DNA from: Fluviispira vulneris
GTDB lineage: Bacteria > Bdellovibrionota_B > Oligoflexia > Silvanigrellales > Silvanigrellaceae
Reading direction: 5' to 3'
DNA length: 64,000 nucleotides
Assembly (NCBI RefSeq): GCF_014281055.1
Contig: NZ_JACRSE010000002.1
Coordinates: forward strand, 248,001-312,000
Shown here: one piece after another, positions 9,601 to 56,768 of the stretch
How the letters are laid out: every line of letters starts with the position of its first letter
How positions within the stretch are numbered: position 1 is the stretch's first letter
Position numbers and translations under genes: made by a program
Notes under the pieces: generated by a model
Told to the model about the DNA's origin: nothing
Databases searched by the model: none
What the model saw: only the letters and a program-made list of their open reading frames with translations

Positions 9601-10131
9601 GACAGAGTCTCCAAATATTTCTATGCGAGAAGGGGTTTTTTCCCCAGGTGTCCAGAAATCGACAATGGATCCCCTGACACAAAATTCACCTACTTCTTCA
9701 ACCCTTTGCACTTCTAAATAAGCCAATCGAGAAAGCTGTTCAATCAATAAATCAGGGTCGAGATCATCTCCGATTTTAATTTCAAATTTATTTTCTTGTA
9801 TCCATTTAAAATTTGGAAAATTTCTAAGGTAACCAGCTAAGCTACAAATGAGAATTCTTGGAAAATGCTTGCCTATTGAATATGATGCAGCAATTCTTTT
9901 GGCAATGATTTTACGTGATGATTCAAAACGGAAAACTCCCGCTTGAAAATATCCAGGTATATGTAATATGTCTTTATCTGAAAAAATATCTGCAGTGAAT
10001 TGGCGAAGTGTTTCTTCAATTTTTTGCGCTTCAGATTCAGTATTTACTATAATAATTTTTGATGAATTGGGAGAAATCATAAGTTGAGCTATGATTTCTA
10101 CTAAAACAGGCTCGAGGGAAAAAAGATTCAT
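6586..10131 (-). CDS. mfd: Transcription-repair coupling factor Mfd
   Basis: 1181 residues, the normal Mfd length. It displaces RNA polymerase stalled at DNA lesions and recruits UvrA. A UvrB-like N-terminal module is followed by the CarD-like RNA-polymerase-interacting domain (around residues 495-560: [18 protein letters not shown]). Next is the RecG-like translocase: Walker [10 protein letters not shown] near 650, the DEEQ box ([11 protein letters not shown]) near 747, [13 protein letters not shown], and helicase motif VI ([12 protein letters not shown]). The C-terminal TRCF domain follows. It begins 40 bases after gpsA and shares its last 20 bases with the next gene, so it is inside a minus-strand operon. 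Confidence 0.97.
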
Positions 10132-10171
10132 AAATTAGGATGTCCTCGTTTTCCAAATTTCTGATTAATAA

Positions 10172-11200
10172 TTATTTCCATTTAAATTCGCTTCCCTGTT
10201 CTCTTTCAATAAGTAAGTTAACAGCTTTTTTAATAGGCATGTCTTCATAAATTACTTTATATACAGTGTTTAATATTGAAGCTTCAATTCCAAGCTTTTG
10301 GCAAAGTTCATGCGCACTTTGGGCTGTTGTAATTCCTTCAATAACTTGCCCCATGGAATTGAAAATACTTTCTTTTGTTTCACCACGTGCCATCCGAAAA
10401 CCAAATTGACGATTGCGCGAAAGATCGCCTGTGCAGGTTAAAATAAGATCGCCAACACCACTTAAACCTAAAAATGTCATGGGGTCTGCACCCATTTTCA
10501 CACCCACTTTGGCAATTTCTGAAAGTCCCCGTGTGATGACTGCCGCCCTTGCATTGTAGCCAAGTTCTAGGCCATCAACTGCTCCTGCAACCATTGCGAT
10601 CACATTTTTTAAAGCCCCAGCAATTTCAACGCCAATAATGTCTTCGGAATCATAAATTCTAAAATAGGAACTGTGTAAAATCTGTGCGGCAACATTGAGT
10701 AGTGCTTTATTTTTTGAAGATACTACAACACAAGTTGGTAAACCTAAAAGCATTTCTTTGGCAAAACTTGGGCCACTTAAGCTACCTACATTCGCTTTGT
10801 CTTTCCAAAAATTTTCTAATATTTGATAAGGAAGGTGCAGTGTTTTTTGTTCAATCCCTTTTGCTGCAGATATAAGATTGAGTTTTGGAAAGTTTTTAAT
10901 ATTTTTTTTATTACGAATTTTTAGCCATTTCTTCATCATCCATTCGGAAACGTTCGTTAAACTTTGGCATGGTATTGCTAAAATAATGAGATTAAATTCG
11001 CTAAAATCTGTTGCAAAATCTTCAAATGATATAAGCTCACAAAATTTTAACGTTTCATGCTTTTTTAAATTTTCAAAATTTTTGTCATAGCGAGCGATTA
11101 CAGTCACCGCATTATTTTCGTTTTGCACACACGCTGCAATTGCAGTGCCGAAAGCTCCTGCCCCAACGACGAGTGTTTTTGTTTTAATCTCTGCGCTCAT
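10172..11200 (-). CDS. gpsA: Glycerol-3-phosphate dehydrogenase [NAD(P)+]
   Basis: 342 residues. It makes sn-glycerol-3-phosphate from dihydroxyacetone phosphate for phospholipid synthesis in the cytoplasm. The N-terminal dinucleotide-binding motif is GAGAFGTAIA. Family-specific blocks are LISAAKGIE, GSLSGPSFAKE, the active-site region VEIAGALKNVIAMVAG containing the catalytic lysine (in LKN), and GLSGVGDLILTCTGDLSRNRQFG. The start has GGAG upstream (in the 11210 area). It is the first gene of the minus-strand operon that continues into mfd; moxR is divergent, separated by 231 bases. Confidence 0.97.
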   Translation of the reverse strand: MSAEIKTKTLVVGAGAFGTAIAACVQNENNAVTVIARYDKNFENLKKHETLKFCELISFEDFATDFSEFNLIILAIPCQSLTNVSEWMMKKWLKIRNKKNIKNFPKLNLISAAKGIEQKTLHLPYQILENFWKDKANVGSLSGPSFAKEMLLGLPTCVVVSSKNKALLNVAAQILHSSYFRIYDSEDIIGVEIAGALKNVIAMVAGAVDGLELGYNARAAVITRGLSEIAKVGVKMGADPMTFLGLSGVGDLILTCTGDLSRNRQFGFRMARGETKESIFNSMGQVIEGITTAQSAHELCQKLGIEASILNTVYKVIYEDMPIKKAVNLLIEREQGSEFKWK

Positions 11201-11370
11201 TGAAGGTTGTCTCCTCTATAAGATCCTCGTGTATGAACTACCTTTATTTTTTAAAGATGTGAAGGACAAAAATATCTCTCATATATCTATAAAATTTTAA
11301 TATTATGGGTGACACAAGCTTTTATTAAAAGTGGTGCTTTATTTGTATAAATTATATGAGCTCTTTCCCT

Positions 11371-11400
11371 TTTCATTGCAAAGAGATAAGCTTTTATAAT
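11371..11400 (+). promoter_or_regulatory. Putative sigma-70 promoter for moxR
   Basis: A perfect -10 hexamer TATAAT at 11395-11400 has TTTCAT at 11371-11376, 18 bases upstream, as a candidate -35. Transcription would begin near 11407, leaving a leader of about 25 bases before the ATG at 11432. The -35 match is weak; the call is based on the -10 and its position. Confidence 0.45.
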
Positions 11401-11431
11401 GTAATTCCCTCATATGAAAGGGGCGGAAGAT

Positions 11432-12400
11432 ATGTCAAATTTTCAAGATATTGCTCAAGCTTCAACAAAATTATGTGATTTGCTCAACAGCAAAATTTTT
11501 GGTCAAAAAGAAATTGTTGAGCAAATCGTATTAACGATTCTTTGCAATGGTCATGCACTTTTAACAGGGGCTCCAGGTGTGGCGAAAACCACATTAGTGC
11601 GGAACTTGGCTAAAGCATTGGGCTCTGGCTATAAAAGAATTCAATTTACCCCCGATCTGACTCCGTTCGATATCTTAGGCGGTTATACAATACAATTTGA
11701 TGAAAAAGATCCTAATCTTAAGAAAATAGGTTTTTCACCCGGACCCATTTTTGCTCCGTTTATCCTTGCCGATGAAATCAATCGTGCTTCGCCAAGGACT
11801 CAATCTGCATTATTAGAGGCAATGCAAGAACGTCAGGTCAGTATAGAAGGTGTTTCGAGACCATTGCCGAAACCATTTTTTGTTTTTGCTACGCAAAATC
11901 CAATTGAAAATGAAGGAACTTTTCCTCTTCCTGAGGCACAATTGGATAGATTTTTATTAAACTTGGAAATTCCTTACCCAGATCTAGAAGCTGAAGTAAA
12001 AATCGCCACCCTTTCACAGATGGAAAGTGACCTTGAACCTATCCCTTTTGCTGCAATTTTGTTAGAGGCAAGACGTGTTATTGAAAGTGTTCCAATCAAA
12101 GAGGATCTTTTACAGGGTATTGTCCGCATTGTCAGAAACACACGGCCGCATGAATCAAAACTGTCAGTGGCTCGAGATTATCTTGAATTTGGTGCGAGTC
12201 CGCGAGCCACTCAAGCTTTGTTGATTGCTAGCAAAGCTCTTGCAGTTATCCGTGGACAATCTGAAGTTCAATTTGACAATGTCAATGAAATAGCTCCGGC
12301 TGTTTTACGGCATCGATGCATAGTGAATTTTAGATCTCTGGCGGAAAAAAGAAGTGTTTCTAATATCGTTAATCAAATAGTTCAGGAAACGGTCTTGTAA
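11432..12400 (+). CDS. MoxR-family AAA+ ATPase
   Basis: About 322 residues. MoxR ATPases act as chaperones that assemble or activate partner proteins, often ones with von Willebrand A domains. Walker A is GAPGVAKTT, Walker B LADEINRASP, sensor 1 FVFATQNPIE (ATQNP is the MoxR hallmark), and the AAA lid follows with GASPRATQAL. The reading frame opens at an ATG at 11414, but the ATG at 11432 directly after GGGGCGGAAGA is the better start and fits the promoter just upstream. The usual DUF58 and vWA partner genes are not next to it; instead its stop overlaps the start of an HAD-family gene by one base (TAATG). Confidence 0.9.
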   Translation: MSNFQDIAQASTKLCDLLNSKIFGQKEIVEQIVLTILCNGHALLTGAPGVAKTTLVRNLAKALGSGYKRIQFTPDLTPFDILGGYTIQFDEKDPNLKKIGFSPGPIFAPFILADEINRASPRTQSALLEAMQERQVSIEGVSRPLPKPFFVFATQNPIENEGTFPLPEAQLDRFLLNLEIPYPDLEAEVKIATLSQMESDLEPIPFAAILLEARRVIESVPIKEDLLQGIVRIVRNTRPHESKLSVARDYLEFGASPRATQALLIASKALAVIRGQSEVQFDNVNEIAPAVLRHRCIVNFRSLAEKRSVSNIVNQIVQETVL

Positions 12401-12918
12401 TGAATCTAACAGAAAATAAAAATAATACTGAGTATGCAGTTTTTGTCGATGCGTCTGGGACTATATTAGGAGGATCCCAGACAGGTGCTTTGGGTGTAGA
12501 ACTTTATCCAGACTCTATTAAGCTTTTAAATGCTATGCGTGCAAGGAATATTAACGGAATTAATATAAAAACAGGACTTATTACCAATTGGGGTAAAAAA
12601 ATAAATGCAATGCTAAAAGCATTGAATGTTATGGATTGTTTTGATGTTGTCATCAGTTCTGATTCCGTAGCAAAAGGTAAGCCAGACTCTGAAACATTTC
12701 ACTATGCTTGCTCACTCGTTGAAGTTGAACCAAAGAACGCTATTCATATTGGCGACTCTTTGTTTGACGATGCGCTGGGTGCGCAGAACGCAGGGTTGCA
12801 CGGTATTTGGCTGCGACGCACGCCATATTCAAATAAAGATTCCAAAACATTAAAACATCCCATTTTTAGTAATCTAAATGAGGTTTTATTGTATTTAGAG
12901 ACTATTATTAGAAAGTAA
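12400..12918 (+). CDS. HAD-superfamily protein with altered motif I (DASGT)
   Basis: 172 residues of HAD fold. Motif I is FVDASGTI (Asp17, with Ser19 where most HAD phosphatases have the second Asp), motif II TN in LITNWGKK, motif III lysine in VAKGKPDSETF, and motif IV IGDSLFDDALGAQNAG. The nucleophile Asp17 and the metal-binding GDSxxDD are kept. HAD branches that lack the second motif-I acid include dehalogenases and phosphonatase-like enzymes, so a non-phosphatase activity or a modified phosphatase is possible. It is translationally coupled to moxR. Its 3' end overlaps the convergent lipoprotein gene by 24 bases. Confidence 0.8.
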   Translation: MNLTENKNNTEYAVFVDASGTILGGSQTGALGVELYPDSIKLLNAMRARNINGINIKTGLITNWGKKINAMLKALNVMDCFDVVISSDSVAKGKPDSETFHYACSLVEVEPKNAIHIGDSLFDDALGAQNAGLHGIWLRRTPYSNKDSKTLKHPIFSNLNEVLLYLETIIRK

Positions 12919-13962
12919 TTTGTTATTTTCAATTATTATATTACGTTTTGAAGAAACTGTATTATCTATATTTGGGATAATCTCATTGCCCCAATAAATT
13001 TTTATTTTCCCACTCAATGCATCTTTTGGCACTGTTACGTTAACTAAGTCGAGTGGATAGCCATTTGGACTTTGCAGTGTTTTTAATGCATACGATGTTT
13101 TGACTGGATTCAATGCGCCATTAAAATAAATATATCTTCGTGAAATATTATGACCAATAAGAGTTATGACTTCTTTATTTTTAGCTTTTTTAGGAATTTT
13201 TTCTATCCAAGTGTTTAAAGCTTTATGCCTCCATCCTGCTGTAAATTTATTTTTATTGGAATCTAATTTATTCCAAAAGCCATTTGCACAATCATTTTTA
13301 TTCATTAATTTATAAACAACGACGCCAGCATTCTTACCTTCAGTTCCTTTATGGCATTGACCGTGAGGAGTCATTTTTTCACAAGCCCAAGCAGTGGATT
13401 GAATAGCAATGCATTGCTTCGGATCGAGAACTGCAAGAGCATGACCTGGGAATGCAAGAATATCGCCCGTCCTTGGGGCAAAGCCGTTTTTATAGCGCTT
13501 TAGTGGTACAAAATTTTTGAGTTCCGCATTTGTCCTTCTTTTAGCAAAGGTTTCACTCAGAATTGCTGAATTTTTGTATTTTGAATTATAAGGTAAATTC
13601 ATTTCGCCTGCAAAGAGATGCCAAAGAAATCGTGTGCAATCAACTCCATTTTTTCGCATATAATTATATTTATTATCTGCTCTTAAATAATTTCGATCCC
13701 AATTCGCATTGAGCTTTTGCGAGGGATATGGAATTCCTTTTGTGAATATGTTTTTTTTAATATCTTGCGAATAACTCAGAAATTTTCTAACTTCAGGTGA
13801 AGGGTTTTCTGTATAAAGGGAATACCATGCTACAGAAACATTTTTTGGATCGGCATAATCACCAAAATATGTTCTTCGCAGAGAAGAAGATTTCTGTGAC
13901 ATGCATCCTGAAAGTGTAAAACTGATTAATCCTAAAGTTATATAGGTGATTTTTGTTTTCAT
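12895..13962 (-). CDS. Lipoprotein with NlpC/P60-like cysteine-hydrolase core (paralog of 18646-19671)
   Basis: About 355 residues. The ATG at 13962, with AAGGA upstream, gives a lipoprotein signal ending in the lipobox LSGC; the open frame extends to 13998 but without a good start. The core has NGVDCTRFLWHLF (candidate catalytic Cys) and TGDILAFPGHALAVLDPKQC (candidate catalytic His), the order seen in NlpC/P60 peptidases that cut peptidoglycan peptides. A C-terminal beta-rich part (about 260-355) follows, with a cluster of aromatic and basic residues. It is strongly similar throughout to the product of 18646-19671. Substrate unknown; periplasmic-face or outer-membrane location is inferred from the lipobox. 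Confidence 0.7.
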   Translation of the reverse strand: MKTKITYITLGLISFTLSGCMSQKSSSLRRTYFGDYADPKNVSVAWYSLYTENPSPEVRKFLSYSQDIKKNIFTKGIPYPSQKLNANWDRNYLRADNKYNYMRKNGVDCTRFLWHLFAGEMNLPYNSKYKNSAILSETFAKRRTNAELKNFVPLKRYKNGFAPRTGDILAFPGHALAVLDPKQCIAIQSTAWACEKMTPHGQCHKGTEGKNAGVVVYKLMNKNDCANGFWNKLDSNKNKFTAGWRHKALNTWIEKIPKKAKNKEVITLIGHNISRRYIYFNGALNPVKTSYALKTLQSPNGYPLDLVNVTVPKDALSGKIKIYWGNEIIPNIDNTVSSKRNIIIENNKLLSNNSL

Positions 13963-14100
13963 GGCCGCATTCCTTGTTGTCATCTTCAACATAATCAATA
14001 TATATCTTTCACGGGCAGTTTTAATTTTGCGTGCTGCAAAATCTGCCTGTTAAATTAGAAACACAAACCCTAAAGCTGTGGTTTTTGGAGTGTCTAGCTT

Positions 14101-14712
14101 ATGTCGAAAAACATAGATTCAGATAAATCTGAGAGTTTTGGTCAATATATTGCAATTCATATGAAATCATATCGTCGTGAGTATGGCCTGAGCCAAGAAC
14201 AACTCTCAGAAAGATCAGGAGTTCCTCGTAGCACAATTGCCAGTTTAGAGCGAGGAGAGGGAAATCCAACTTTACAGGTACTCATTGGTATTGCACAAGG
14301 ACTGGGCGTTGAGATGGCATCTCTCCTGCAAAAACCGGTTCCAACTGCTGTATTGCGCAAGAAAAAAGACTTTACAAAAGTAACAAAAAAATTAATTGAG
14401 TCCAATGAGTCAGCAGCTAAAACAGTTGATATAATGTTATTAACTCCAGAAAATTCTCGTTACCTTATATTGCAAGAATATATTTTAAACGAGGGTGAGC
14501 GATTTCCGGGTTCACCACACACACCTGGCACGGAAGAGTATTTTTATTGTCAGGAGGGTTCTTTTGAAATCATGGTTGAAAGCGAATACTTTATAGTTGA
14601 AGAAGGCGATCTTCTTTGCTTTGATGGTCATCAAAAGCATGCCTATGCTTGTTGTCTTGGCTTTAAAAGATCGAAGGGCTTGAGTATCGTTGTGCAGGTT
14701 CCTAAGTTTTGA
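14101..14712 (+). CDS. XRE-family regulator with C-terminal cupin sensor domain
   Basis: 203 residues. An N-terminal Cro/C1-type helix-turn-helix lies at about residues 16-75 (YGLSQEQLSERSGVPRSTIASLERGEGNPTLQVL). A cupin barrel lies at about 115-200 (FPGSPHTPGTEEYFYCQEGSFEIMVESEY...EGDLLCFDGHQKHAY). The cupin probably binds a small ligand that alters DNA binding, as in the large XRE-cupin family of repressors. It is divergent from the lipoprotein gene and convergent with the ABC exporter gene at 14724, 11 bases away. Its target is unknown; the flanking operons are candidates. Confidence 0.88.
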   Translation: MSKNIDSDKSESFGQYIAIHMKSYRREYGLSQEQLSERSGVPRSTIASLERGEGNPTLQVLIGIAQGLGVEMASLLQKPVPTAVLRKKKDFTKVTKKLIESNESAAKTVDIMLLTPENSRYLILQEYILNEGERFPGSPHTPGTEEYFYCQEGSFEIMVESEYFIVEEGDLLCFDGHQKHAYACCLGFKRSKGLSIVVQVPKF

Positions 14713-14723
14713 TTTTCCAGATT

Positions 14724-16298
14724 TTATAATCTTATAATATTATCAAAATGACTTTGAATGGCTGGATTGTGTGAGATAGCAATAATTGTTGTATATTTAA
14801 AATTCTCAATTATATTTTTAATAAGCTTATTTTCATAGTCTTCTTCTAAATCAGCAGTTGCTTCATCTAAAATTAATACATCGGGTTTTGCAATCAAGGC
14901 ACGCGCTATGGATATTTTTTGCGCTGTTTCACGGTTGTAGGAATGCGTTTGAGAATTGGATTGCAAATCGATAGATAATTTTTTGGATATCATTTCTAAA
15001 TCTTCATTTTTATAAATATTTAAAAAATCAATATTTTCTTTGCAGTTTCCTAAAAGAAGGGGAGGCTGTTGCTGGACATAGGAGATTTTAAGATCAGGTT
15101 TTAGAAAGCGGATATGACCTTTTGTGGGATATATTTCTTGAATAAGGAGTTTGATAAGAGTTGATTTCCCTGCTCCAGACTTACCAAAAATAAGGGTTTT
15201 AGAGTTTTTTAAAATTGAAAAATTAAAATCGTTGAGGATGGATTTTTTGCTGTTCATATAAGCGAAATAGATCCTCTCAAACTCAATAATGGCTTTCGGA
15301 TCGTTCACGGTATAAACAATATTATTATCATTGCGTGCAATTTCGGTTTCTGTCACTTTATTCATATTATCAAAAGAAACAGCTTGTGCTTCAAAGGTAT
15401 TGAGCATGCGAATGATTTCGGAAAGGTATTGTGATATTTGTGCAAGTAAAGTAAAAATAAGACAGAATATCGTCTCACTTATGTAATTCATTTTTATAGA
15501 AACTAAAAGAGCAGTGCTTATTATAAATTGTAAAAAATTGCTATAAATAAAAATATGAGTTGAAAACCATCTGTTGAGATTAATTCTTAGATAGAATGAA
15601 CTTTGTACTTTTTTGAAATATTCGTTGAATTTATCTTCAAACTGCAAAAAATATTTTTTGTGCAAAATAAGTTCTGACAAGTGGTTTATTTGATGTGTAT
15701 ATGCGGAAAATTCCGTTTTATATTCTAGATTAAACTTCTTTGAATAGTACGCTGGCGAACGATAGGAAGCTTGTAATTTATTATAGATAAACAAAACCAA
15801 TACGAAAAAAAGTATCATAATAGGTATGCTATATGAGACAAAAATGAAAATAATTGCTGTTTCTACAAAAAGAAAGAAAAATCTTTGGTAGGATTCTGAA
15901 ATTTCAAGATCAATGATTTTTTGATCTTTTAAAAAGATTGTTTTTATATAAGAGATATCAAAATTATTTATCTTGAATAAAAGCGACTCTAAGTTCATAT
16001 TATGAATGGTGTTAGCTGCTTCAATACTTATTTTTTTCCAGCTAATTTCTAGAAATAAATTGAACAGGATTGTGCCGAGCATAAGACTGAGTGTGACAAT
16101 AGGAATTAAAATGGTTGCACTTTTGCTGTCTGAAAAATCTAAGAGCAGAGAGGTTTGAATATAGGGAAAAATAAAAGTTATGAACGTCATTAAAAATATA
16201 GAAATTGTAAATATTTTATGCCATATACCTTTCCCCAATAAGAAACATGTCCAAAGTTTGAGTTGCTGGAATGTTTGAGAGAAATCATTCGTAGCCAA
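14724..16298 (-). CDS. ABC exporter subunit (permease + ATPase) with degenerate signature motif
   Basis: 524 residues. About six membrane helices in the first 300 residues are followed by a nucleotide-binding domain. Walker A is intact (FGKSGAGKST near 369), as are the Q-loop (SYVQQQPPLLLGN), Walker B with catalytic Glu (DVLILDEATADLE near 470) and the H-loop (AISHN). The LSGGQ signature is replaced by RETAQKISIARAL. The start is TTG at 16298 with AGGA upstream; there is no earlier ATG. It follows the split ABC gene by 25 bases and the pair probably forms a heterodimer (see the finding on complementary ATP sites). Substrate unknown. Confidence 0.8.
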   Translation of the reverse strand: MATNDFSQTFQQLKLWTCFLLGKGIWHKIFTISIFLMTFITFIFPYIQTSLLLDFSDSKSATILIPIVTLSLMLGTILFNLFLEISWKKISIEAANTIHNMNLESLLFKINNFDISYIKTIFLKDQKIIDLEISESYQRFFFLFVETAIIFIFVSYSIPIMILFFVLVLFIYNKLQASYRSPAYYSKKFNLEYKTEFSAYTHQINHLSELILHKKYFLQFEDKFNEYFKKVQSSFYLRINLNRWFSTHIFIYSNFLQFIISTALLVSIKMNYISETIFCLIFTLLAQISQYLSEIIRMLNTFEAQAVSFDNMNKVTETEIARNDNNIVYTVNDPKAIIEFERIYFAYMNSKKSILNDFNFSILKNSKTLIFGKSGAGKSTLIKLLIQEIYPTKGHIRFLKPDLKISYVQQQPPLLLGNCKENIDFLNIYKNEDLEMISKKLSIDLQSNSQTHSYNRETAQKISIARALIAKPDVLILDEATADLEEDYENKLIKNIIENFKYTTIIAISHNPAIQSHFDNIIRL

Positions 16299-47037: not shown

Positions 47038-47829
47038 ATGAAATTTTCAATATTCGCATTCAGTCTTTATTTTTCAACATGTGCATTTGCCTGTCTAAGT
47101 GGAACAGGACCTATCAAAATGCAGGATGAAAAAATAGATTGTGTCATGCATATAGGATCAATTGCTTTTAAAAATGTCACAGTCAGTAAAAATTTTGAGA
47201 ATACAGGTTCTGTAGAATTAATTGGCAGTCAAATCCAAGGGGCATTTTCAAACACTGGCCATGTGAGTTTAGACAAGGTCACTATAAGCGGAATTTTTGA
47301 AAACACAGGTTCTGTAGAACTGATTGATAGTAAAATACAAGCTGATTTTGACAATACGGGCAATGTTTATGTTGAAAATGGGTTTGTTGCAGGGGACTTT
47401 AAAAATACAGGCAAAGTGAAACTTCAGAACGTTGAAAGTTTAGGTGATATGGATATCACTGGCAAATTTAATGCTAGGAAAATAAAATCAAAAAATATCA
47501 GTATTACAGGTCAAACTGAATTTTCAGGGCAAAGTATAATCAGTGGAAAGACTTATGTCTTAGGCGATTTAACAGCTAAAGAAACTATCTTTAAAGACAA
47601 AATAGAAGTTACTGCAGAAATTGTTAAATTATATGATAGTGTTTTAGCAAAAAATATTTATTTTAGAAAAAATAAAAATGATAAATATGAACAAGAGTAT
47701 TTATATATAAATAATTCAACAGTGGAAGGAAATATAGAATTTGAAAGTGGCAGAGGAAATGTCATTATTTCCAATAGCGGCAAAGTGAAAGGGAAAATAA
47801 TTGGTGCTTCGGTAAAAAATAATTCTTAA
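47038..47829 (+). CDS. Exported beta-solenoid protein with 17-residue NTG repeats
   Basis: 263 residues. A signal peptide (FSIFAFSLYFSTCAFA) is followed by five near-regular 17-residue repeats from residue 53 (FENTGSVELIGSQIQGA, FSNTGHVSLDKVTISGI, FENTGSVELIDSKIQAD, FDNTGNVYVENGFVAGD, FKNTGKVKLQNVESLGD), then more diverged turns. This pattern predicts a right-handed beta-solenoid, like adhesins, pectin-lyase-like or bactofilin-like folds. Repeats 1 and 3 are nearly identical also in DNA, suggesting recent duplication of a 102-base unit. Ribosome-binding site AGGAG. Likely surface or periplasmic; function unknown. Confidence 0.75.
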   Translation: MKFSIFAFSLYFSTCAFACLSGTGPIKMQDEKIDCVMHIGSIAFKNVTVSKNFENTGSVELIGSQIQGAFSNTGHVSLDKVTISGIFENTGSVELIDSKIQADFDNTGNVYVENGFVAGDFKNTGKVKLQNVESLGDMDITGKFNARKIKSKNISITGQTEFSGQSIISGKTYVLGDLTAKETIFKDKIEVTAEIVKLYDSVLAKNIYFRKNKNDKYEQEYLYINNSTVEGNIEFESGRGNVIISNSGKVKGKIIGASVKNNS

Positions 47830-48746: not shown

Positions 48747-49682
48747 ATGAATGATATCGGTAAATGGCTTTTAGGTTTTTCAGCATATGAAAAGATTTAT
48801 AAATTAAAATCTAAACTTGATAACAAACAAGTTGAAATTGTCAACCAATTTTCTCCTATTATGCATTCTGAATATCAGCCATGGATGTGCATGCAGGAGT
48901 GTTATCCATATTTTATAAATGAAAATGATCGATTCAATGAAACTCTGGTCGTTAATGACCTAGTTCTATTGAATAAAATTCAGGATAAATTTATCAATAC
49001 TATTAATTGTTCAGATAGGGTTCTGAAATCGAATACATATTTTTATTGGCAAATTGAAACAATTGATAAAGATTATATTGATAAATTTTTCTGCGAAACT
49101 CAACAAGTTTTGGAAATAATATACAAAACACATTTTCTATTTGAAAAGTATATATTACTTATTATAAATCTAATCTACCCATTAAAAAGAACTATTGCTG
49201 CCAAGATGACTGGAGCAGGATTAAGTACACATTTTTTTCGGGGTGGTGTTTTTTTAATTCCTCCAGAGAAAAGTGAATTTTTTGAAGAAGAGTATGCAAT
49301 AAATATTGTCCATGAATTGGCGCATCAGGTTTATTTTCTATATCAAAATGCAGATCCGATATTTAAAACGGAATCTAATTTATTGGTCTATTCTGTAATT
49401 AAGAAAGTTGAACGACCTATAGCGTTGAGTTTTCATGCGCTTGTTGCCACATATTTTATGTATATATATTCTTATTATTTTTTTAAAAATAAGAATTTTA
49501 AAAGCAATAATAAAAAGATATTTATAATAAATAAAAATAATGATTTAAAGAGGAATTTGGAAATTGGTTTGAATGTTTTTAAAAATATTGAATTCACAGA
49601 ATTAGGTGAGCTCATATTACAAGAAATGAATTCAGCATTATCACTTACTATGAACAAGGAGGTATCTCGTGAAAATTTTTAG
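48747..49682 (+). CDS. HExxH-motif protein resembling peptide beta-hydroxylases / HEXXH-domain RiPP enzymes
   Basis: 311 residues, no signal peptide. HELAHQ (His189, Glu190, His193) is preceded by GGVFLIPPEKSEFFEEEYAINIV. It is followed by a segment with Pro-containing spacing, then KKVERPIALSFHALVATYFMY (Arg223-Pro224, His230). A HExxH followed 25-40 residues later by an RP...H block is the pattern I associate with the HEXXH-motif domain found in peptide-natural-product clusters and with alpha-ketoglutarate-dependent HExxH peptide hydroxylases. The family call is by eye. A plain zinc peptidase is the alternative. Its stop overlaps the start of a 72-residue peptide gene by 14 bases. Confidence 0.55.
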   Translation: MNDIGKWLLGFSAYEKIYKLKSKLDNKQVEIVNQFSPIMHSEYQPWMCMQECYPYFINENDRFNETLVVNDLVLLNKIQDKFINTINCSDRVLKSNTYFYWQIETIDKDYIDKFFCETQQVLEIIYKTHFLFEKYILLIINLIYPLKRTIAAKMTGAGLSTHFFRGGVFLIPPEKSEFFEEEYAINIVHELAHQVYFLYQNADPIFKTESNLLVYSVIKKVERPIALSFHALVATYFMYIYSYYFFKNKNFKSNNKKIFIINKNNDLKRNLEIGLNVFKNIEFTELGELILQEMNSALSLTMNKEVSRENF

Positions 49683-49887
49683 TCTATATAAATCTGTCAC
49701 TTTCATAAGTATTCTTTATAGCGTTTTTATTTTTGAAGTATATTTGCGTTCTAATACAGTTAATTTATATAAAGATGAAATAGATTTAGAAGATAAAGTG
49801 ATGAGTCAGCTGTTAGAAAATATAAGACCGAATTATCTTATAAATAATATTAAATTGTCGCATGCGCCACACCATGACCCAACCTGA
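49669..49887 (+). CDS. Small membrane-anchored or exported peptide, 72 residues, His/Asp-rich C-terminus
   Basis: Starts with GTG at 49669 behind a perfect AAGGAGGT, so translation is well supported. Residues about 8-27 form a hydrophobic helix (VTFISILYSVFIFEVYL), followed by an acidic amphipathic stretch (KDEIDLEDKVMSQLLENIR) and a short tail ending SHAPHHDPT. It overlaps the HExxH gene by 14 bases and precedes a solute-binding-protein gene by 15 bases, so the three are one operon. It is a candidate substrate of the HExxH protein, with the His/Asp tail as core; the alternative is a small membrane protein partner. Confidence 0.6.
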   Translation: MKIFSLYKSVTFISILYSVFIFEVYLRSNTVNLYKDEIDLEDKVMSQLLENIRPNYLINNIKLSHAPHHDPT

Positions 49888-49902
49888 TCTGAATAGAGAA
49901 AT

Positions 49903-51414
49903 ATGATTTATAAAATATTAATTTTGACTTTTTTAAGCTTTAATTCAAACTTATATGCGAGTGAAAAAATGCGGATCTTACTCCATGAAACACACGACAA
50001 TCCATATGCAGAAAACTCTCCTGGCTCCACCTTAGCAACTCTCAATGTAGCTATTTTAGGGCAACTAATGGATATAGATAAATATTATAATATTTATCCT
50101 AGAATATTAGAAAGAGCATACTACGATTTTAAAGAAAAAAAATATATTCTTAAGCTCAGAGATAAGACTTATTTTCACAATGGCAGACTGGCTGACTCGA
50201 AAGATCTAGAGTTCTCTTTATTAAGAGGATTTTTTACAAAAAGAATAAATTATTTTAAAATGTATTTTGGTAACATAGAAGGACTCGAAGAGATAGAAAA
50301 GCAGAATATTACAAAATTCAAGAGCGGTTTTGTTTCTGGAGTAAAGATCATAGATAACTTAACTCTTTCCGTAAAACTAAAAGAACCAAACCCCGATTTT
50401 TTATATTCGCTGATAGAACCTTATTTTTCTTTGGTTGCTATGGAAGCTTTAGAAGAAAATTATATGACTTGGAAAAAATATCCAGTAGGTGCTGGACCAT
50501 ATAAAATAGTGGAACCAGGTTATCATGATGGAGAAACCAAGCTTATTAAAGTTCAGAAAGATTTAAAGACAGGTCCGGACGAAGTTTTTTTCTATACAAA
50601 ATATGATACTAGCAAAGAATGTGATATATTGGCCTTCAATTCGAAGCGCGAAAATATTGAAAAATATAAATTATTTGAGTCAAAAAATTCAATTAGTATG
50701 AATGTTATTAATTTCAACTTTAATATAGAATTAAGGAATAATGAAAATTTTAGAAAATTTATTAATGCTGCAATTGATAGGACAGAGTTGATTAAAAGTA
50801 TCGTTGGTGCTACTGAAGCTTATGAAACCTTGCCGAAGCACTATTGGGGACGCATTGAGGCCCTCGACCCTTATAATCCCAAATTGGCAAGTCAATATTA
50901 TCAACTTATACCAAAAAATTTGCGAGAAAAGGAGTGGAATTTATCAGTTTATAGTGGGAAAAAGATAACTCCGCAAAAAAAGAATGTAGCAGAAAATATC
51001 AAATTGCAATTAAGTAGATATGGGTTTAAAATCAATTTTTATCCAAGCAATGATAAATTTTTTTCTGAGATCACAGGGCAGCAAACTGCACTCCGATTAG
51101 CAGGCACATTAACGACAATGAATGATCCTCTTATTGCGTTTAGCGCTTATACACTTGATTCTCCCTATAAGAATGAAAGACCATTACAGGATGAAAAGCT
51201 TAATTCATTATATTTACGAGCAAAAGAAGCAGCCTCAAAAGAGGAGCGGGTGGCGAGTGTAAAGATTTTATCAAAATATTTTATTGAAAAGACTTATGCA
51301 GTTCCTCTATTTGAAATAAAAAATGCGATATTTTATAATAATAATAAAATAAAAAGTTTAGGCGCACAAAATCAAGCGCATATTCTAGATGTGGCAAAAA
51401 TAGAAATGAAGTAG
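49903..51414 (+). CDS. Periplasmic solute-binding protein, family 5 (peptide/OppA type)
   Basis: 503 residues with a signal peptide (YKILILTFLSFNSNLYAS). The SBP_bac_5 pattern is present: NVAILGQLMDIDKYYNIYPRILE, KKYILKLRDKTYFHNGRLADSKDLEFSLLR, TLSVKLKEPNPDFLYSL, KKYPVGAGPYKI, FRKFINAAIDRTEL. These proteins bind oligopeptides or other solutes. There is no permease or ATPase gene here. It is the last gene of the HExxH-peptide-SBP operon and is convergent with the hybrid kinase. It is a paralog of the two minus-strand binding proteins further right (55236-56768 and 53759-55207). Confidence 0.85.
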   Translation: MIYKILILTFLSFNSNLYASEKMRILLHETHDNPYAENSPGSTLATLNVAILGQLMDIDKYYNIYPRILERAYYDFKEKKYILKLRDKTYFHNGRLADSKDLEFSLLRGFFTKRINYFKMYFGNIEGLEEIEKQNITKFKSGFVSGVKIIDNLTLSVKLKEPNPDFLYSLIEPYFSLVAMEALEENYMTWKKYPVGAGPYKIVEPGYHDGETKLIKVQKDLKTGPDEVFFYTKYDTSKECDILAFNSKRENIEKYKLFESKNSISMNVINFNFNIELRNNENFRKFINAAIDRTELIKSIVGATEAYETLPKHYWGRIEALDPYNPKLASQYYQLIPKNLREKEWNLSVYSGKKITPQKKNVAENIKLQLSRYGFKINFYPSNDKFFSEITGQQTALRLAGTLTTMNDPLIAFSAYTLDSPYKNERPLQDEKLNSLYLRAKEAASKEERVASVKILSKYFIEKTYAVPLFEIKNAIFYNNNKIKSLGAQNQAHILDVAKIEMK

Positions 51415-51426
51415 TTTAATAATTTT

Positions 51427-53751
51427 TCAATTAAACTTATGCGGAAATTTATCTTTTATCTCAGCATAAGAGATAGGGATTTTTTCTAAAACCCCATCAA
51501 ATAATGCAACTTCATTTTGCATAAATACATTGAGACTGCTGCTAAGTAATATGGATTTATGATAACCAATATCTCTACAGGCTGCAACGAACTTGTGCTC
51601 AATAATATTTTTTTTATCGCCACAAAAAAAGTAGTCTGCAATGATAAGTTTAACTTTATCTAGATTGTTTATTAAAAATTCAAAAGCTTCTCCAGGGTCA
51701 GAAAATGTATAGCACTCAGAATCATGCAATGCGTATTTCCAACAATCTAAATAAAATTCGTCGTCATCTATCACAATAACGACTGGTTTAGCACTATTCT
51801 TAATAGTCAATTGTTCATTTTTTTCCAAGTGATTCAAAACAATCTTTAAAATATGAATGGATTCCATTGGCTTTGCTAAATATGAATCGGCTCCGCTTTC
51901 AAACGTCTGTTTAAGAATATCGTCCCCTATCCGATTGGAATGCAAATATATTTTTACCTCAGAATTTGAATTTCTTATTTTTTTAGCGATATCGTATCCG
52001 TTTATTTTTGAATGGTTGAGATCAATATCGCAGAGAACAAAATGAACAGTGTGTATATAAAAATATTTTAATCCCTCAAATGGATCTTTTTTACTTATTA
52101 CTGTGATTTTAATATTATGAAGAAGTTCTTGACAGAGAATTTCAATATAGTTTAAATAAGAAATATCATCATCAATATGCAGAATTATAAATTCTTTCGC
52201 GCTCTCTTTATTATTTGCTAGAATGTGATTTATCTTTTGGTATATGCAAATTTCTTCCGAATGAAAAAGTTCTTCATGGGACTGTATTTTTTTATACAAA
52301 GAAGAGTGATCGAATAATTCGATATTAGGTATCTCACTGTCATCTTGCTGGCAACTAGGAATTGTAAAGGTGAGTTCGACTTCATTTTGTTGAGGAGTTG
52401 AACTAAAATTCACAGTGCCTTTGTGGCTTTCAACTATTTGTTTCACTATTGCCAAACCTAAGCCAGTGCCAGAGTTTTTTCCTTTCGTATAGAATTTATC
52501 AAAAACTCTATTTGGATCTTCATGGAGAGTCGATGAGGTGCAATTTATGATACTAAACTCTATAAATCTATTATTATCGATTATGATCTCTTGAGTTGAT
52601 ATCTTTAAAGAACCAATTTTATTCATAGCTTTGATGGCATTGTCAAATATATTATTCAGCACACGAAGAATTTTGTATTCGTCAGCCTTTATAGAATATT
52701 TGTGTTTTAAATCCCAGCTAATAGAAATAGATGTGTTATTTATCCGTGAGAAAATCTGTACAAGAGATTTGTCAAGAAGATGTGTGGGAGAAATAGATTG
52801 GATTTCACAGTTTACTTCTTCACCAAAATATATAATATCTTTAAATATATTTTGAATGTATTCCAGCGAAGCGTGTATTTCTTGTTTCCCAATTTTAATT
52901 AATTTATTTTGCTCATCTTTATTTTTTATTTTATCTATGGAAGTTAAAAGTGACAAGATGAGTGTATAAGGTTTATTCACATCATGGATAATCATTTTGA
53001 TGGTATCGACCATGGATTTAAAATGGGACATTTTTTCAATTTCTTTTTCCCGCTCTTTTATTGTATTTAAAGCGGTTAAGATATTTTCATTATATTTGCA
53101 TAGACAGCTATATAAATTATTAATCTCTATAAATTCAGAGATTTTATTATAAAATAAATCCCCTTTTTTAATATTCTCCTCTATATTGAAAATGGGATCT
53201 GTGATTTTTTTATAGGTCTGGATAGTTCTTTTTTTCTTATAAAAATAAATAATAAATGATAGAATAGTGCATAAAAAATAAGATGTAAAAATGAGAAATA
53301 TATCAAGCTTTTTTCCTAAGATTAACTCGCCAATTTCTCTTTCATTTGATTGAAGTGGAAAATGATATAAAAAAACAAAATTGCTGTTTATACTATACTC
53401 GTCCGTTATTTTGACTAAAGTATTGTCGATAGAGTGATTGGGTTCAAGCGAAAAAACTTCATGTTTTTCTTTGCTCAGGTCATTTTGTGATATTATTTTA
53501 ATATAATCAAAATTATTCCCCATTTTAAGTGAGTTGAGTGTATTATCTATATAAAAAGTATTGCCTATGACAAGCGAGTTTGTCAGTCCAAAGGAAAGAG
53601 AATTGGCAATATCTTGTGATTTTACAATATATGCACTCCAAAAAAACACTGCCCATAATGACGTAATGAAAAGTAATATTGCAAAAAAGGCACGCTTGGC
53701 CTCTGTTTTATTTTTTTTAAGAATATAATTTTTAAGCTTTTTTTCTTGCAT
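51427..53751 (-). CDS. Membrane hybrid histidine kinase with two receiver domains
   Basis: 774 residues. A membrane helix (FFAILLFITSLWAVFFWSAYIV), a periplasmic loop of about 110 residues and a second helix (IFLIFTSYFLCTILSFIIYF) precede the kinase core. The H-box is TIKMIIHDVNKPYTLI and the N-box LNNIFDNAIKAM, followed by VFDKFYTKGKNSGTGLGLAIVKQIVESHKG. Two receivers follow: the first has LHIDDD, Asp in VLCDIDL and Lys in YLAKPM; the second has VIDDDE, Asp in LIIADYFF and Lys in VLEKIP. It lies seven bases downstream of the binding-protein gene 53759-55207 on the same strand, so periplasmic binding proteins may present its signal. Confidence 0.9.
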   Translation of the reverse strand: MQEKKLKNYILKKNKTEAKRAFFAILLFITSLWAVFFWSAYIVKSQDIANSLSFGLTNSLVIGNTFYIDNTLNSLKMGNNFDYIKIISQNDLSKEKHEVFSLEPNHSIDNTLVKITDEYSINSNFVFLYHFPLQSNEREIGELILGKKLDIFLIFTSYFLCTILSFIIYFYKKKRTIQTYKKITDPIFNIEENIKKGDLFYNKISEFIEINNLYSCLCKYNENILTALNTIKEREKEIEKMSHFKSMVDTIKMIIHDVNKPYTLILSLLTSIDKIKNKDEQNKLIKIGKQEIHASLEYIQNIFKDIIYFGEEVNCEIQSISPTHLLDKSLVQIFSRINNTSISISWDLKHKYSIKADEYKILRVLNNIFDNAIKAMNKIGSLKISTQEIIIDNNRFIEFSIINCTSSTLHEDPNRVFDKFYTKGKNSGTGLGLAIVKQIVESHKGTVNFSSTPQQNEVELTFTIPSCQQDDSEIPNIELFDHSSLYKKIQSHEELFHSEEICIYQKINHILANNKESAKEFIILHIDDDISYLNYIEILCQELLHNIKITVISKKDPFEGLKYFYIHTVHFVLCDIDLNHSKINGYDIAKKIRNSNSEVKIYLHSNRIGDDILKQTFESGADSYLAKPMESIHILKIVLNHLEKNEQLTIKNSAKPVVIVIDDDEFYLDCWKYALHDSECYTFSDPGEAFEFLINNLDKVKLIIADYFFCGDKKNIIEHKFVAACRDIGYHKSILLSSSLNVFMQNEVALFDGVLEKIPISYAEIKDKFPHKFN

Positions 53752-53758
53752 AAAAAAT

Positions 53759-55207
53759 CTAAGTCTTCATCACAATATTTGAAAAATGAAGAATATTTTG
53801 TTCCATTTGCTCCGGAGATATTTCTTGAATTTTTTGCGAGTTATAAGAGATTTTCTCTTTAAAGCAGAAAAGTGGAATAGCAACAGTACTGTCTGAAATA
53901 TTTTCAGACAATTCCTTCAGTCTTTGAATTAACTCTTCAGTGCTTTTTGAGCGTTGGGTTTTACAGTATAATTTGTCATAGGAAATATCGTTGGGATGTT
54001 GATAAAATTGTGCACTAGCAGAGCGAAAATAGGAAAAGTTGAGAATAGGATTATCATTGTCTGCAATCTGAGAACACAAACGAAACGGAGAATCTGTAAA
54101 TTCATCATAGAAAACATGCCAAAGTTTATCCGACTCAACAAACTCTACTTTTAGTCCAATATCTTGCAATTGTTTTTCAATAGTCAGCTTATAATTGTTA
54201 CCTAAATACGAATCTGCTGAAATAGGAATTTTATAAGTTTTATTTCTCTCATCTGCATCCAAGCACATTTCTAAGAGCATTTTCCCTTTTTCAATATTCT
54301 GGCTCACTGTGTTTTCGCTTCTACCAATGCTTTTTGGGAGAAGAATCTCATGTAATTCTTCACTTTTTCTTTTAGTTTCTTTAGCAATATCTTCTTTATT
54401 CAATGCCAATTCAATTGCTCTTCTAAAGTTATACTGCTTAGAAAATTTATGATTGAAATTAAATAAAATAAGCCTTTTTCCTGTATAGCAATTTAACTCT
54501 GCAATTTTATAATAAGGGTCATTGGCAAAATTTAAATTTGCATTGCTGAGGTCGGGATTTTGGGTTAATTTTGTAGAAAAATAGACAATTTTTGGTTGAT
54601 TATTTAAATTTTCATTTACAAGTTCAAGAGTAAATATTTTATTTTCATAATCACTTTCTATTACTTTATAATCTCCCACTCCAATAGGCCATTTATTCCA
54701 TTCAATTAGGTCTTCACACAATTCTTCTTGTGGAACTAAAGAATAACTGGTTTGACAAAGTGAGTTTAAAAAGAGAATATTTTTTTCATTTAACTGAACA
54801 GATAGGCTTAATTCATCGAGTATTTTAATACCTCTAACTATTGCAGATGCATAGGGGGTTCCATGGTTTATTTTATCAAGTCCTAAAATATCAAAATTTT
54901 CCATCGATCCTTCATTGGGTTTAGAGGCAAAAAAGCAACGGACTAAGCTGAATTCGAGATCTTTTGCATGAACTGAGCGCCCATTGTGAAAATAAAGATT
55001 GGGTTTTAGTGTAAATATATAAGTATTACTTTCTTCATTGTGTTCAAATCTTTCTAAGAAATCCGAGTGTAGCTTTCCATTTTTAAATCTTAACAATTGG
55101 CCAAGGACATTGACTTCGAAATGGTGTCGCGCTTTTGCACTTGCGGCTTGTTCCCAAGGGACATTCGAGAGATTTTCTATATAAAAAGTGATACTCCTAT
55201 TATTCAT
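53759..55207 (-). CDS. Family-5 solute-binding protein lacking a signal peptide
   Basis: 482 residues. Its sequence aligns with the mature part of the product of 55236-56768 from the first residues (SNVPWEQAASAKARHHFEVNVLGQL versus the TPWEEQAGADARASITANVLGQL region) to the end, including KPNLYFHNGRSVHAKDLEFSLVR and NKWPIGVGDYKVI. The ATG at 55207 follows AAGGAG, and there is no in-frame upstream codon set that could encode a signal peptide. It should therefore stay in the cytoplasm. Unlike SgrR it also has no DNA-binding domain in front. It lies 28 bases after 55236-56768 and directly precedes the hybrid kinase. Confidence 0.8.
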   Translation of the reverse strand: MNNRSITFYIENLSNVPWEQAASAKARHHFEVNVLGQLLRFKNGKLHSDFLERFEHNEESNTYIFTLKPNLYFHNGRSVHAKDLEFSLVRCFFASKPNEGSMENFDILGLDKINHGTPYASAIVRGIKILDELSLSVQLNEKNILFLNSLCQTSYSLVPQEELCEDLIEWNKWPIGVGDYKVIESDYENKIFTLELVNENLNNQPKIVYFSTKLTQNPDLSNANLNFANDPYYKIAELNCYTGKRLILFNFNHKFSKQYNFRRAIELALNKEDIAKETKRKSEELHEILLPKSIGRSENTVSQNIEKGKMLLEMCLDADERNKTYKIPISADSYLGNNYKLTIEKQLQDIGLKVEFVESDKLWHVFYDEFTDSPFRLCSQIADNDNPILNFSYFRSASAQFYQHPNDISYDKLYCKTQRSKSTEELIQRLKELSENISDSTVAIPLFCFKEKISYNSQKIQEISPEQMEQNILHFSNIVMKT

Positions 55208-55235: not shown

Positions 55236-56768
55236 TTAATTTATATAGTTTTCTTTAAGTTTTATATTTGAAAGTCTTAATATACTTCCTCCTGCTTGTG
55301 AACCTACTGATTGTATTTTATTTTTATTATAAAAAACTTTTGCTGGTAAAGCAAAAAGAGTAATTTGAAGTTTTTCAGAATCAACATAACTTGAAAGTTC
55401 TTTCAATTTAATATTTAGAATATCTATGCTGGGTGACAGTTGTGCATCAGTAAAAAGATCATCAAATTTTTTATCTATGGGTCTTTCTTGTATAAGACGA
55501 CTTGTGCTCTTAAAGAATGTAAAGAATAAAATAGGTTCGTAGAAATCAGTTATTTGGGATTTAAGTCGGAATGGTGCGTGAGAAAATTCATTTTCAAAGA
55601 CATTAAAGGTTTTTGAGTAGGTTTTGAATTCAACTTTTAAACCTGCATCAGCAAGTTGTTTTTTAACTTCATTTTTATACTCAATACCAATTATTTCATC
55701 GATAGTATTGGGGATTAAAAAAACTTTTTTATTATAATCATCACCGAGAGATTGTTTGAAAAGTAACTTTGCTTTTTCAAGATTTTTTTCAGATTTTATA
55801 TTTATTCTTCCAATATTATTTGGAGGTATGACTTCATAAAGTGCTTCGCTATCTAAAGTTGTTTTTCTCGCAATTACTTCTCTATCTAGCGCAAGCTCTA
55901 CTGCTTTACGAAAGTTTAAGTCAGAACCAAGCTTTGAATTGAAATTAAATGAAATAACTCTTTTGCTTGAATAGCCAGAAATTTTTTCTTCAATATAATT
56001 TTCTTTTTTAAATGAAGGAAATCCCTCAAAAAAAATGTCAGGATTATTTTTATTCTTTGTTTCAAAATAAACAATTTTAGGTGCATTCTTTAATTCATTA
56101 TTAACTAATTCTAAAGTAAATATACCATTTTCAATATCTGCATCTTTGATTTTATAATTGCCAACTCCTACGGGCCATTTTTTCCATGTTAATAGGTCAG
56201 GTAAGAATTCTTCAAAAGGAACCAATGAGTAATTTGGTCTCGATATTGTATATAAAAAGGTTGGATTTGGAGCTTTTGGTTTTACAGTTATTGTTGTATT
56301 ATTTATTATTTTAATCCCTTCAACCATACCACTTTTATAGGTATCGCCGCGTTTAATTTTATCAAGCCCAAAAATGTTCATAAAAAGTGTTGAGCTTTCA
56401 TTAGCATTCTTGGCTAAATATGGGCGAAGTAGGCAAAACTCTAAGTCTTGCGAGTTGACAACTCTCCCGTTATGAAATTTTAAATTTGGCTTTAATTTAA
56501 GAATATATTGCTGATTCTTAAAGTCCCAATTAAACATATCTAAATATTTTGAGATAAACCCTTGATTTTCATCTATTTCAATTAGTTGCCCCAGAACATT
56601 TGCTGTAATGCTTGCGCGTGCATCTGCTCCTGCTTGCTCTTCCCAAGGGGTTTTTGCTAAAGAAGAAATGCTCAATATAATATCGCTATTTTTCATCGTT
56701 TTTGCTTCAGAATTGGTGCTTAATATTACCATAAAAATAGTGAGTAAAATATTTTTTTTATGGATCAT
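55236..56768 (-). CDS. Periplasmic solute-binding protein, family 5 (peptide/OppA type)
   Basis: 510 residues with a signal peptide (HKKNILLTIFMVILSTNSEA). The SBP_bac_5 domain has ITANVLGQLIEIDENQGFISKYLDMF, LKPNLKFHNGRVVNSQDLEFCLLR, IKIINNTTITVKPKAPNPTFLYT, KKWPVGVGNYKI, FRKAVELALDREVI. It is the first gene of an operon continuing to the signal-peptide-less paralog and the double-receiver kinase. No transport permease is present. Ligand unknown, perhaps peptides. The 270 bases upstream of it hold only AT-rich promoter-like DNA down to the ilvD end. Confidence 0.85.
   Translation of the reverse strand: MIHKKNILLTIFMVILSTNSEAKTMKNSDIILSISSLAKTPWEEQAGADARASITANVLGQLIEIDENQGFISKYLDMFNWDFKNQQYILKLKPNLKFHNGRVVNSQDLEFCLLRPYLAKNANESSTLFMNIFGLDKIKRGDTYKSGMVEGIKIINNTTITVKPKAPNPTFLYTISRPNYSLVPFEEFLPDLLTWKKWPVGVGNYKIKDADIENGIFTLELVNNELKNAPKIVYFETKNKNNPDIFFEGFPSFKKENYIEEKISGYSSKRVISFNFNSKLGSDLNFRKAVELALDREVIARKTTLDSEALYEVIPPNNIGRINIKSEKNLEKAKLLFKQSLGDDYNKKVFLIPNTIDEIIGIEYKNEVKKQLADAGLKVEFKTYSKTFNVFENEFSHAPFRLKSQITDFYEPILFFTFFKSTSRLIQERPIDKKFDDLFTDAQLSPSIDILNIKLKELSSYVDSEKLQITLFALPAKVFYNKNKIQSVGSQAGGSILRLSNIKLKENYIN

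Follow-up and report, generated by a model that had tools for sequence, protein, structure and literature searches.

In the window (the whole stretch of 64,000 nucleotides analysed here), we identified a set of genes that may form a cassette for producing and sensing a modified peptide, in which a Sec-exported, oxidatively modified peptide would be sensed in the periplasm by a solute-binding protein (SBP) and histidine kinase pair; we put the chances of this reading as a whole at about even. The initial annotation had described three tightly coupled genes, and we confirmed their order and + strand placement, the 14-base overlap between the enzyme and peptide genes, the 15-base gap between the peptide gene and SBP1, and the good Shine-Dalgarno (SD) sequence, AAGGAGG, a few bases before the GTG of the 72-aa gene (Table 1). 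Its OppA-like call for the third gene was also right, as SBP1 matched the Pfam family SBP_bac_5 with E=6e-29. Beyond what had been noticed there, a convergent hybrid histidine kinase gene lies 12 bases downstream of SBP1 and is accompanied by two more SBP genes. Elsewhere in the window, positions 47038-47829 encode an exported 263-aa protein with repeated beta-strand-like motifs and a weak, sub-cut-off similarity to bactofilins.

Table 1. Coordinates of the putative cassette and the neighbouring convergent operon, in positions of the window.
Feature	Coordinates	Strand	Description
HExxH enzyme gene	48747..49682	+	311 aa, ATG start; aKG/Fe HExxH peptide beta-hydroxylase-like; no signal peptide apparent
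Shine-Dalgarno AAGGAGG of the 72-aa peptide gene	49653..49659	+	inside the 3' end of the HExxH gene
Putative precursor peptide IKLSHAPHHDPT	49669..49887	+	72 aa, GTG start
SBP1, SBP_bac_5 solute-binding protein	49903..51414	+	503 aa, ATG start; signal peptide; no permease nearby
Hybrid sensor histidine kinase	51427..53751	-	convergent with the HExxH operon
SBP2, SBP_bac_5 paralog	53759..55207	-	7 bases upstream of the kinase gene; strong SD, signal peptide lacking
SBP3, SBP_bac_5 paralog	55236..56768	-	has a signal peptide; opens the SBP3-SBP2-kinase operon

The HExxH protein is, as predicted from its sequence and modelled structure, very probably an alphaKG-dependent peptide oxygenase, and its family assignment is well supported, because a family profile, a fold match and invariant motif residues all place it among the alphaKG-HExxH oxygenases. 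Neither this protein nor the 72-aa peptide matched a Pfam family. Its sole match in NCBIfam was TIGR04267 (aKG-HExxH-type peptide beta-hydroxylase; E=1.9e-5), the family to which the initial annotation had pointed, and since its 24.8 bits fall below the curated cut-off of 40 bits we file it as a divergent relative and not as a certified member. TIGR04267 was matched by every relative tested, with scores above the cut-off for Aquimarina spongiae (L062, 54.6 bits), a Bdellovibrionales metagenome-assembled genome (MAG; L063, 48.8 bits) and L047 (48.4 bits), and a score of 39-40 bits for the paralog in the same genome (L007). The HExxH motif with a downstream RP...H block was borne out as HELAH (residues 189-193) and R223-P224-(x5)-H230: residues H189, E190, H193, R223, P224 and H230 are invariant in nine of nine aligned relatives, with which the window protein shares just 18-27% identity, and they line up with HEHRHQ and LRPPSGLLH of ChlH.

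A profile built from nine relatives of the HExxH protein (A2) matched ChlH (PDB 8s5f, an HExxH domain from a peptide hydroxylase that depends on alphaKG) at E=2.2e-16, compared with E=0.008 for the best zinc peptidase. When the AlphaFold model (pLDDT 74.8, with residues 51-105 low and unreliable) was compared with 350,542 PDB chains by Foldseek, ChlH was again matched (E=2.6e-8, probability 1.00, TM 0.60), and SjiH (22ob; E=1.4e-5) was the sole other PDB match below E=0.001. The protein could instead be a zinc or iron peptidase that acts on the exported or imported peptide by hydrolysis, not oxidation, given that HExxH is also common to zincins and that PflC carries out leader-free proteolysis in vitro (PMC12636437). 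This explanation is very improbable, however, as the nearest solved structure is an oxygenase, the relatives belong to TIGR04267 and no peptidase was found by Foldseek below E=0.001. A simple zinc metallopeptidase, the main alternative in the initial annotation, was rejected on the same profile and structure comparisons and on the lack of a Pfam family. Known alphaKG-HExxH enzymes either hydroxylate a residue (Asp, His, Phe, Gln or Pro) or make an oxidative cut that leaves a C-terminal amide (PMC12636437, PMC13060819).

Relatives of the enzyme were retrieved from genome contigs only with an alignment-based query (four matches, versus none with a single-sequence query), and the plasmid and viral contigs searched contained none. 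Searching the Aquimarina family (201 genomes) added only a single genome, with a marginal match (E=7e-4). In a tree of 13 enzymes, only a transporter-associated group and the pair L007/L010 were resolved. Four loci of the same class (L045, L046, L049 and L050) form a separate TIGR04267 group that lies beside MFS or ABC-type membrane proteins and not SBPs.

Enzyme, SBP and small open reading frame (ORF) occur together at eight loci. A second copy in the same genome (L007, contig C5) comprises the enzyme, a 69-aa peptide, an SBP and a kinase, and in a genome of the same genus (L008, G006) the enzyme is found with a 55-aa peptide, an SBP, a GNAT protein and a kinase. Locus L010/L051 (G005), on a contig common to Fluviispira multicolorata 33A1-SZDP (L061), has the enzyme, a 66-aa peptide, five SBPs and a kinase. 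Other gene orders are seen in G034 (L009, on a contig common to Pseudobacteriovorax sp. MAG DT_89), where an 85-aa peptide, SBP, enzyme and kinase form a single run, and in G045 (L011), where a 108-aa peptide, SBP, enzyme and kinase are joined by a response regulator. In G026 (L047) a 24-aa peptide, enzyme and SBP are found with an MFS-fused kinase, and in the Bdellovibrionales MAG (L063) a 70-77-aa peptide, enzyme and SBP are followed by the contig end. A histidine kinase gene was present in the SBP/HExxH neighbourhood at 7 of 7 loci with a contig long enough to check, and in L009, L011 and L047 it belongs to a single compact operon. Because this gene set recurs in distant relatives, it may represent an undescribed peptide-signal system. 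Outside this arrangement, Aquimarina spongiae (L062) encodes an enzyme of the same subfamily directly after a 45-aa peptide ending ...LKVLGGNQAGEGTDKTDRHNRA, which by its sequence is of the shape of a double-glycine RiPP precursor.

The initial annotation had proposed that the 72-aa peptide is the substrate of the enzyme beside it. This peptide has a signal-like hydrophobic N-terminus, an acidic middle and a variable C-terminus, and it does not align with most of the other small-ORF peptides. The position of its gene is conserved beside the enzyme in all SBP-type relatives found, being matched in L007, L008 and L010, with equivalent small ORFs in L009, L011, L047 and L063. A uniform scan, written after the enzyme loci had been inspected, found an SD-preceded short ORF adjoining the operon at 8 of 8 enzyme-SBP loci compared with 1 of 14 SBP loci without the enzyme (Fisher p=2.8e-5; 1.2e-4 with near-duplicates dropped), from which we conclude that the peptide travels with the enzyme. 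The L007 and L010 peptides, the sole pair close enough for rate estimates, gave a dN of 0.54 and a dS of 1.40, whereas dN for the corresponding enzymes was 0.25; thus, these peptide genes are protein-coding and evolve about twice as fast as the enzyme. As expected of a RiPP biosynthetic gene cluster, a peptide gene lies beside the modifying enzyme at all eight SBP-type loci and at the Aquimarina locus. Taken with the operon structure, this co-occurrence makes it likely that the adjacent peptide is the enzyme's substrate.

Sec-like N-termini were assigned by eye and a simple hydropathy rule to seven of the eight peptides; the 24-aa peptide of L047 is without a signal, and by the simple rule the L063 peptide has no net positive n-region. 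Among the other free short ORFs of these loci, 14 of 64 pass a similar rule, so that the Sec-signal rule is suggestive only. Sec signals are rare among bacterial RiPP precursors (PMC12452194). We found neither a leader-removal protease nor a dedicated exporter in the window cluster, and such genes are not encoded in all known RiPP clusters (PMC12636437); with export by Sec, a dedicated exporter would be unneeded.

The SBPs of the cassette lack the partners of a transport system. The genome contains about 22 SBP_bac_5 genes, only three of which have adjacent permease pairs, and the closest BPD_transp_1 permease gene on the same contig as the window SBPs lies more than 300 kb from them. A plain peptide ABC importer was rejected because cognate Opp/Dpp permease genes are absent beside the window SBPs. 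At the alignment column that we take to be that of OppA Asp419, which concerns the ligand amino-terminus, SBP1 has Thr and both SBP2 and SBP3 have Asp. Three SBP_bac_5 paralogs (SBP2, L010 1173-2624 and L010 4625-6136) have a strong SD, no signal peptide and in-frame stops just upstream, and from their sequences are possibly cytoplasmic members alongside the secreted ones.

The window kinase appears to share an operon with SBP2 and SBP3 and, being convergent, is not co-transcribed with the HExxH operon. It has two TM helices, a small PDC/PAS-like periplasmic domain, HisKA/HATPase and REC domains and a second receiver-like domain, and the conservation of H256, the N-box, the G-boxes and D575 indicates a complete sensor kinase. 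The periplasmic part is predicted to be a small helix-helix-beta domain, with weak PDC/PAS-like matches, none below E=0.001. Directly after several kinases (L007 4843-5460, L041 8168-8776 and L051 17786-18400) lies a conserved protein of ~205 aa with an N-terminus that is HTH-like by eye and no Pfam match, a candidate output regulator. An 80-aa ORF between SBP and kinase at L100 7465-7707, the place taken by the HExxH gene in L009, was considered as an enzyme remnant and rejected (blastp E=0.2).

In this clade, SBP_bac_5 genes are often paired with a kinase gene where the enzyme is absent (L044, L094, L098, L099, L100, L101, L102, L105 and L106), and the presence of such pairs alone in relatives points to sensing as the base function of the SBPs. 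Past the window end in the same genome, L044 (G000:C2:305000-322000) contains at 9219-16082 a second RiPP-like module on one strand, made up of an MFS gene, a 37-aa ORF with an SD, a DUF4135/LanM-like protein (E=1.6e-10), an SBP_bac_5 gene and a kinase. The occurrence of SBP-kinase loci without enzyme or peptide could also mean that the enzyme and small ORF are a modified-peptide pair while the SBP and kinase sense unrelated environmental peptides, with shared regulation alone behind their co-localisation. In keeping with that explanation, three SBPs in the window, and five in Fluviispira, accompany one peptide, and although SBPs that activate adjacent kinases are known, adjacency of sbp and kinase genes does not always reflect functional linkage (PMC11113362). 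However, the association of enzyme, peptide and SBP persists in three or more families and under differing gene orders, and every strong match within the class to the A1 enzyme profile adjoins an SBP, and we therefore regard unrelated sensing as improbable.

We propose that the cassette would operate in four steps. The HExxH protein, a predicted Fe(II)/alpha-ketoglutarate-dependent peptide oxygenase that family, motif and fold place with ChlH, BpmH, PosC and PesO, would act in the cytoplasm on the 72-aa peptide, which is probably oxidised on its sequence-variable C-terminal part, as suggested by co-occurrence and operon structure. The signal-like N-terminus is predicted to direct the peptide to Sec export, after which one or more of the orphan SBP_bac_5 proteins would bind its mature modified form, or part of that form, whether in the periplasm or once it has been released and has re-entered. 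The liganded SBP may then make the hybrid histidine kinase encoded beside it more or less active, as the conserved neighbourhood suggests. In this way a two-component phosphorelay would read a peptide that the cell itself makes, serving as a signal or as a self/non-self tag. None of the three outcomes that the initial annotation had named as refuting it was observed (no HMM match to the HEXXH/hydroxylase families, no conserved small gene beside the enzyme in relatives, or a match to an unrelated zinc peptidase family), and the modified-peptide or peptide-signal system that it suggested is supported. The sensing role of SBP and kinase is what we infer here in addition; whether this pair senses the peptide is, in our judgement, evenly balanced.

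The same enzyme, Sec-signal peptide and SBP would also fit if the modified peptide were a RiPP effector released from the cell, such as an antimicrobial or a metal or nutrient scavenger, with the SBP recapturing the peptide or its cargo and the kinase only regulating the cluster. Bufferins, which are known Sec-signal RiPP precursors, are copper chelators (PMC12452194), and the characterised aKG-HExxH enzymes are members of natural-product clusters (PMC12636437, PMC13060819). Set against this are the lack of a permease beside the SBPs for scavenger import, the absence across the peptides of conserved Cys or other metal ligands, the absence of a conserved immunity or export gene and the lone SBP-kinase pairs of the relatives, and we consider an effector role rather unlikely. 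A more specific form of the sensing proposal is that this is a Gram-negative peptide-pheromone system, in which the Sec-exported, alphaKG-HExxH-oxidised peptide would be the ligand of the adjacent SBP_bac_5/hybrid-kinase receptor. The system would then be one of several interchangeable peptide-modifier and SBP-kinase modules in Bdellovibrionota, with the LanM-like DUF4135 module of L044 and its 37-aa ORF as another version; we advance this reading only tentatively.

Both peptide pheromones and ribosomal peptides with modifications are familiar from Gram-positive bacteria, but to our knowledge few Gram-negative peptide signals have a known receptor. If the peptide is the ligand of the SBP, the young alphaKG-HExxH family would be tied to signalling rather than to antibiotic making, a further enzyme class would act on Sec-signal precursors, and a compact and testable set of ligand, modifier, receptor and kinase would be available in a poorly studied lineage.

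Several known systems share parts of this cassette. The alphaKG-HExxH RiPP hydroxylases ChlH (8s5f), BpmH, PflC/PosC and PesO (TIGR04267/IPR026337) have the same catalytic motif, fold, RP...H block and adjacent short peptide gene (PMC12636437, PMC13060819). Their clusters differ in having radical SAM, MNIO or nitroreductase partners together with transporters; an SBP-kinase pair, present here, is not described for them in PMC12636437 or PMC13060819, and the peptides here, unlike theirs, look Sec-exported. Bufferins and other Sec-signal RiPP precursors resemble the proposed precursor as short Sec-signal peptides modified before export (PMC12452194), but they are MNIO-modified and contain Cys, bufferins are related to copper, and neither an SBP nor a kinase is reported with them. 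A full-text literature search returned no paper joining RiPP, solute-binding protein, histidine kinase and precursor peptide, an absence that is weak evidence as most subscription papers fell outside its scope.

On the sensing side, SBP-coupled sensor kinases (LuxP/LuxQ type and others; PMC11113362, PMC10384115) also have an SBP gene adjoining a kinase gene, and a small PDC/PAS-like sensor domain is predicted for the kinase here. The ligands reported for such systems are sugars or amino-acid-like compounds, whereas the cassette combines a peptide-type SBP_bac_5 protein with a co-encoded candidate ligand. The ligand of LuxP is AI-2. PrgZ (4faj), a Gram-positive peptide-pheromone receptor, belongs to the SBP_bac_5 family as do the SBPs here (match E=3.4e-17), and in systems of its type the peptide ligand comes from the same genetic system. 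PrgZ passes an unmodified peptide to the Opp importer and an intracellular receptor, and the cassette described here has a kinase in place of the permease. By analogy with these systems, the cassette appears to work as a RiPP enzyme-precursor pair would if linked to a two-component system that senses through an SBP.
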